Assembly: GCA_035487355.1 (NCBI GenBank)
Contig: DATHMF010000026.1
Span: 1-64,000 of the forward strand
Reading direction: 5' to 3'
DNA from: Terriglobales bacterium
GTDB lineage: Bacteria > Acidobacteriota > Terriglobia > Terriglobales > Acidobacteriaceae
Length of the DNA stretch: 64,000 nucleotides
The notes under the pieces: model-generated
Told to the model about the DNA's origin: nothing
Seen by the model: only the letters and a program-made list of their open reading frames with translations
Database searches by the model: none
Made by a program: the position numbers and the translations under genes
Shown here: one piece after another, positions 1 to 8,095 of the stretch
Numbering within the stretch: the stretch's first letter is position 1
Layout: every line of letters begins with the position of its first letter

Positions 1-147
<147 letters not shown>

Positions 148-7523: not shown

Positions 7524-8009
7524 CTAGGGTAAAGTTCGCAATACCTCAAAACAGTCATCGTGGGGAGGCTGCTCGCCAAGCTCATAGACTTTCGCGAAGG
7601 CAATTTTGCCCTGCTTATCTACGATGACCACGGCCCGTTCACTGATGCCGGGCAGGGGAGGCCCTTCGCGGAAAACGCCGTAGGCTTTGGCCACGCCTCC
7701 ATGCGGATAGAAGTCGCTCACCAGGGGATAACGCAAGATCCCGATGGATTTTTCCTGCCAGGCGATGTGGCTGAAAATGGAATCAATGCTAATGCCCACG
7801 ACCTGGGCATCGAAACCGGCGAACTTATCGAGATCGTCGTTGAGCGCCGGCATCTGGGTGGTTCAAGTCGGACTCCAATCCAGCGCATAGAAGGCCAGCA
7901 CGAGGTTTTTCTTGCCGCGATAGCCGCTCAATTTGAAGGGATGGCGCTCGCTTCCCGTCACTGCCGCTAGCTCGAAATCGGGGGCAACATCTCCAACCTG
8001 TAAGGGCAA
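7524..8009 (-). CDS. peroxiredoxin, probable selenoprotein (in-frame UGA at peroxidatic position)
   Basis: 161 aa if the TGA at 7865-7863 is read as selenocysteine (Sec49). The upstream part (MPLQVGDVAPDFEL...LAFYALDWSPT) ends at TGA exactly where peroxiredoxins carry the peroxidatic Cys. The same frame then continues TTQMPALNDDL...VVGISIDS...SERAVVIVDKQGK with no further stop. The conserved Arg (SER, about residue 125) is present, and a C-terminal Cys153 could act as resolving residue. The start chosen is TTG at 8009, because GGAG (complement of 8016-8019) sits 6 bases upstream and the protein then begins like AhpE/BCP-type peroxiredoxins. A GC stem-loop begins 12 bases after the UGA. The alternative is a nonsense-mutated pseudogene; the intact reading frame on both sides, terminator and paired upstream motifs argue against it. 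Confidence 0.75.
7817..7852 (-). promoter_or_regulatory. candidate bacterial SECIS element
   Basis: In the mRNA, CCGGCG starting 13 nt after the UGA pairs perfectly with CGCCGG at nt 42-47. Inside, AAC pairs with GUU, leaving an apical loop that starts with G about 24 nt after the UGA. That fits the usual placement of bacterial SECIS loops (roughly 16-37 nt). Paired by eye; no folding energy was calculated. Confidence 0.35.
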
Positions 8010-8095
8010 AGGATTCTCCAGAAAAATTCTGATGATGAGGCGAACCAAAGATTATATATGCTCGCGCCGAACTTGCGGAAATTCTGAAGACAGAC

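Follow-up and report, generated by a model that had tools for sequence, protein, structure and literature searches.

The peroxiredoxin (Prx) gene at positions 7524..8009 on the minus strand of the window, the 64,000-nucleotide stretch of Terriglobales DNA analyzed here, carries an in-frame UGA codon at its active site, which raises the question of whether this codon is read as selenocysteine (Sec) or marks a gene in decay. The window is part of contig 26 of a draft assembly of 5.43 Mb (118 contigs, 96.6% complete). We conclude, with a probability of roughly 95%, that the gene encodes a selenocysteine peroxiredoxin, and we infer that Sec is inserted at this codon in the cell.

Read on the minus strand from position 8009, the frame opens with a TTG start and runs for 161 codons to a TAG stop: LPLQVGD...FYALDWSPT-UGA-TTQMPALNDDL...VLRTLP-TAG. 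On the plus strand, the segment 7524-8009 does not encode the peroxiredoxin. As proposed in the first-pass annotation, the single UGA falls at the position of the peroxidatic Cys (codon 49, TGA at 7865..7863 on the minus strand, motif ALDWSPTU), where we annotate Sec, and the 161 codons contain no other stop, frameshift or gap; the ribosome-binding site that it placed ahead of the TTG start is likewise found, with GGAG (8016..8019, minus strand) 6 nt 5' of the start. Relatives begin at the same residue, which in many of them is Met. The Pfam AhpC-TSA model spans both halves around the TGA as one domain (9.8e-33), and the Pro of the Prx motif PxxxT/SxxC is replaced by Ala in the window copy, as it is in its nearest kin. 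The neighboring genes, encoding an MBL-fold hydrolase and dus, are conserved only within the genus and offer no clue to function.

Decoding of the UGA as Sec depends on a dedicated machinery, for which the first-pass annotation had proposed a search of the rest of the genome. Three parts of it are present: a full-length SelA (556.6 bits); a tRNA-Sec with a UCA anticodon (76.1 bits), called by two programs; and SelD (373 bits), encoded on contig 26 at ~89 kb and itself interrupted by an in-frame UGA in VKAAGUASKLSP. The remaining gene, selB, was not found in the 96.6%-complete draft, where a profile, the SelB wing domain, and the SelB protein and DNA of a sister species all failed to give a true match. 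The best genome matches of the SelB profile (L010 and L011) were identified as EF-Tu and CysN, respectively. This absence leaves room for the possibility that selB has truly been lost and that the gene now yields only a 48-residue fragment. However, a sister genome of the same genus (G317) encodes an intact SelB (356 bits), its gene flanked by lpxC and purL, and protein queries for lpxC and purL, run without a positive control, likewise found neither gene in the draft. Since the sister-genome neighbors of selB are missing as well, its absence is best explained by an assembly gap, with SelB encoded in the missing stretch. SelB scores above the cut-off in 69 of the 75 genomes examined, the same-genus genome included, and the draft itself retains selA, selD, tRNA-Sec and its four AhpC/TSA genes with a UGA in intact form. 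Based on these observations, we consider true loss of selB very unlikely.

Comparison with the peroxiredoxins of relatives, the alignment by which the first-pass annotation suggested that its reading could be checked, gave a clear pattern of UGA at this site in one group and Cys in others. TGA, and only TGA, occupies the equivalent of codon 49 in 36/36 of the closest distinct acidobacterial Sec-group homologues, which come from gp1, gp4, gp7 and Terriglobia records, a degree of conservation that places the UGA beyond chance. A few sister genera have Cys versions (TGC or TGT), as do almost all relatives further away, so that UGA alternates with Cys, and never with Trp. Across the order, 64 of 397 genomes contain a homologue with exactly one TGA (the position of the TGA was checked in retrieved loci only); selA is present in 62 of these 64 genomes as compared with 113 of the 333 others (Fisher p 5e-23, kinship ignored), and the two without selA do have SelB. 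A quick tree, in which deep support is weak and Sec is not rooted against Cys, places five Sec/Cys changes, and may be compatible with one origin. Five Cys versions of the window Prx (L026 from G374, L039, L044, L046 and L048) occur in genomes that still contain selA, and lack the hairpin described below; they are apparent Sec-to-Cys replacements among sister genera. Relative to the copy from the same genus, Ka/Ks is 0.04 before the UGA and 0.09 after it, and the latter value indicates strong purifying selection on the codons that follow the UGA, and thus that the post-stop part is still protein.

A SECIS hairpin is predicted 12-48 nt after the UGA (7815..7851, minus strand), its main stem pairing 7851-7845 with 7821-7815 and its loop region containing a conserved G at 7835. 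This G, at +28 from the UGA, is largely conserved among the homologues and falls in the range for bacterial SECIS elements. Taken alone, the hairpin of the window is not significant in a single-sequence fold against dinucleotide shuffles, and marginal against synonymous recodings (z about -1.8, with 4-6% of recodings equally stable); the case is therefore carried by the test across the family. For nucleotides 6-51 after the UGA, the mean fold-energy z relative to synonymous-codon recodings is -2.16 (se 0.15, n=36 UGA copies), whereas Cys homologues give z ~0. RNAalifold returned no consensus on 31 divergent sequences, and the stem was therefore counted explicitly. The same register, +12..+18 with +42..+48 from the UGA, recurs across the UGA homologues, and in 34 sequences: (i) pairing is 80% in register and drops to 26-47% when the register is slid; (ii) changes on both sides of the stem occupy 24 cells versus 7.6 in shuffles; and (iii) covariation is 0.214 versus 0.098 in shuffles, of which 0/500 reach the observed value. 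As judged from these sequence comparisons, the element directly after the UGA is a predicted SECIS, to which SelB would bind.

These data bear directly on the reading of the locus as a nonsense-mutated pseudogene, in which a Cys codon (TGC or TGT) became TGA in a dying copy. TGA is one base away from the Cys codons, and some relatives do have TGC or TGT at the equivalent of codon 49, but a dying copy would not share its TGA with the 36 homologues of the alignment and across dozens of genera, retain a Ka/Ks of 0.09 after the UGA with no second lesion, or belong to a set in which a SECIS-like hairpin is conserved in the UGA copies only. The circumstances under which the first-pass annotation would have called the gene a pseudogene, namely a genome devoid of the whole Sec machinery, or decay beside relatives that all have Cys, are not those found here, and we regard a pseudogene as extremely unlikely. 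Readthrough of the UGA by another route, through near-cognate Trp or Cys insertion or a reassigned code, could draw on the absence of SelB from the draft, but is hardly credible given that the large genes of the window are full length under table 11 with no reassignment apparent, that SelA, SelD and tRNA-Sec are encoded in the genome, and that relatives exchange UGA with Cys and never with Trp. With selA, selD and tRNA-Sec present, the UGA kept by relatives and no decay by Ka/Ks (0.09), the original suggestion of a probable selenoprotein holds, and the locus is almost certainly a selenoprotein gene and not a pseudogene.

The AlphaFold model of the Sec peroxiredoxin has a pLDDT of 96.9, and in fold it comes closest to Prx1-type 2-Cys peroxiredoxins (TM ~0.9). 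Among the homologues, position 49 is the only invariant Cys/Sec, and codon 125 (7635..7637, minus strand) encodes an invariant Arg that corresponds to the catalytic Arg of peroxiredoxins, which the second half of the protein was correctly said to retain. The further proposal that a C-terminal Cys would form a redox pair with Sec did not survive: Cys153 is present in only 8/36 Sec homologues, so a Sec-Cys pair is rejected as a general feature, and in the alignment with 2-Cys peroxiredoxins the residue falls in their last helix, before the resolving-Cys arm, which is missing in the window protein as the chain ends at residue 161. Because position 49 is the sole invariant chalcogen and Cys153 is not conserved, the protein appears to be an enzyme of a one-Sec type that an external thiol regenerates.

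We propose the following sequence of events. SelD would supply selenophosphate, with which SelA would convert Ser-tRNA-Sec to Sec-tRNA-Sec; SelB, bound to the hairpin just 3' of the UGA, would then deliver Sec-tRNA-Sec, making codon 49 Sec. In the Prx active site, the Sec selenolate, together with Arg125, would attack H2O2 or organic peroxides, the presumed substrates, to give a selenenic acid. As the group has no conserved resolving Cys, the selenenic acid would probably be reduced by an external thiol or a thioredoxin-like partner, in a cycle of the 1-Cys type.

Among known systems, "Peroxiredoxin (Prx), TxxU" is an established bacterial selenoprotein family (PMC1088965, PMC1794560, PMC13188914), and the window protein shares with it the PF00578 domain, the T/SxxU active site and Sec where the peroxidatic Cys would be; an AhpC/TSA domain with UGA at the peroxidatic Cys, and UGA/Cys pairing among homologues, are both found here. 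PrxU of Eubacterium acidaminophilum also has Sec at the peroxidatic position, and its model (NF040737) gives the best match in NCBIfam (6e-20), but with 71.9 bits the window protein stays far below the cut-off of 270; it also lacks the C-terminal region of this model of length 233, and is therefore not a member of the PrxU equivalog. Prx1/2-Cys peroxiredoxins (PDB 5zte, 6j13) are the best matches in both fold and sequence (TM ~0.9, 36-39% identity), but they have Cys instead of Sec and carry a resolving Cys on a C-terminal arm, which the window protein lacks. AhpE of Mycobacterium tuberculosis (PDB 4x0x, 1xxu), among the best sequence matches and similar over most of the chain (1.3e-23), is likewise a protein of ~160 residues and of the one-Cys type, lacking a resolving-Cys arm at the C-terminus, but uses Cys, and overall the window protein is no more similar to it in sequence than to 2-Cys Prx1. 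Judged on sequence, the window protein would thus combine the traits of the AhpE (1-Cys) type, that is, a short chain, a single catalytic chalcogen and no conserved resolving Cys, and may belong to AhpE proper or to Prx1.

The first-pass annotation had noted that Sec peroxiredoxins are known but not well described in organisms of this type, and this agrees with what we found. That Acidobacteria use Sec is already established: a 2006 survey counts four Acidobacteria selenoproteins in three families, and the acidobacterial isolate Occallatibacter riparius has three selenoproteins (PMC12013277). A search of the open literature found no description of the acidobacterial Prx1/AhpE-like Sec group, which seems under-described and plausibly constitutes a separate subfamily.

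The PF00578 domain occurs at 18 places in the genome, four of which, the window gene included, have one in-frame TGA, each at the peroxidatic position. The second such gene (L153; contig 55, 18122-18505, plus strand) is PrxQ/BCP-like, with the motif NTPGUTLEACGF; its sequence retains a Cys five residues beyond the UGA, which suggests that it could form a Sec-Cys pair. The third (L155; contig 106, 73808-74179, plus strand) is a GGU-type Prx (AFTGGUTKQM) with UGA relatives in two other Acidobacteria records (L084, L088), and the fourth (L161; contig 109, 79753-80148, minus strand) is a redoxin with a UPNC (UxxC) active site. The post-UGA hairpins of the GGU-type Prx (z about -3.3) and of SelD (z about -3.5) are strong even when taken alone.

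Sec peroxiredoxins have been reported to be linked with low oxygen and anaerobic life (PMC1794560), a trend against which the presence of four Sec AhpC/TSA genes in a single soil genome would stand out. It is conceivable, at somewhat less than even odds, that Acidobacteriota possess a distinct one-Sec Prx subfamily that started out with Sec and has repeatedly exchanged it for Cys, and that some members maintain a multi-enzyme selenium peroxide defence in soil, against the anaerobic trend. Since standard annotation would split or discard UGA-containing Prx genes, the selenium peroxide defence of this very common soil phylum is likely under-counted. The occurrence of close Sec and Cys versions of one enzyme in sister genera also offers a good system in which to ask why selenocysteine is kept.

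Finally, some minor features were recorded. A Cys-type Prx6-like peroxiredoxin gene (L154; contig 103, 19606-20486, plus strand) precedes the tRNA-Sec gene (L002, 1501-1596) on the same strand, with ~400 nt between its matched domain and the tRNA. In the window itself, the 5' end of a bacterial SSU rRNA gene (1-147, minus strand) runs off the contig edge, and the segment 11029-11075 (minus strand) matches the Rfam small RNA family Acido-Lenti-1 with 37.7 bits, against a gathering threshold of 37.
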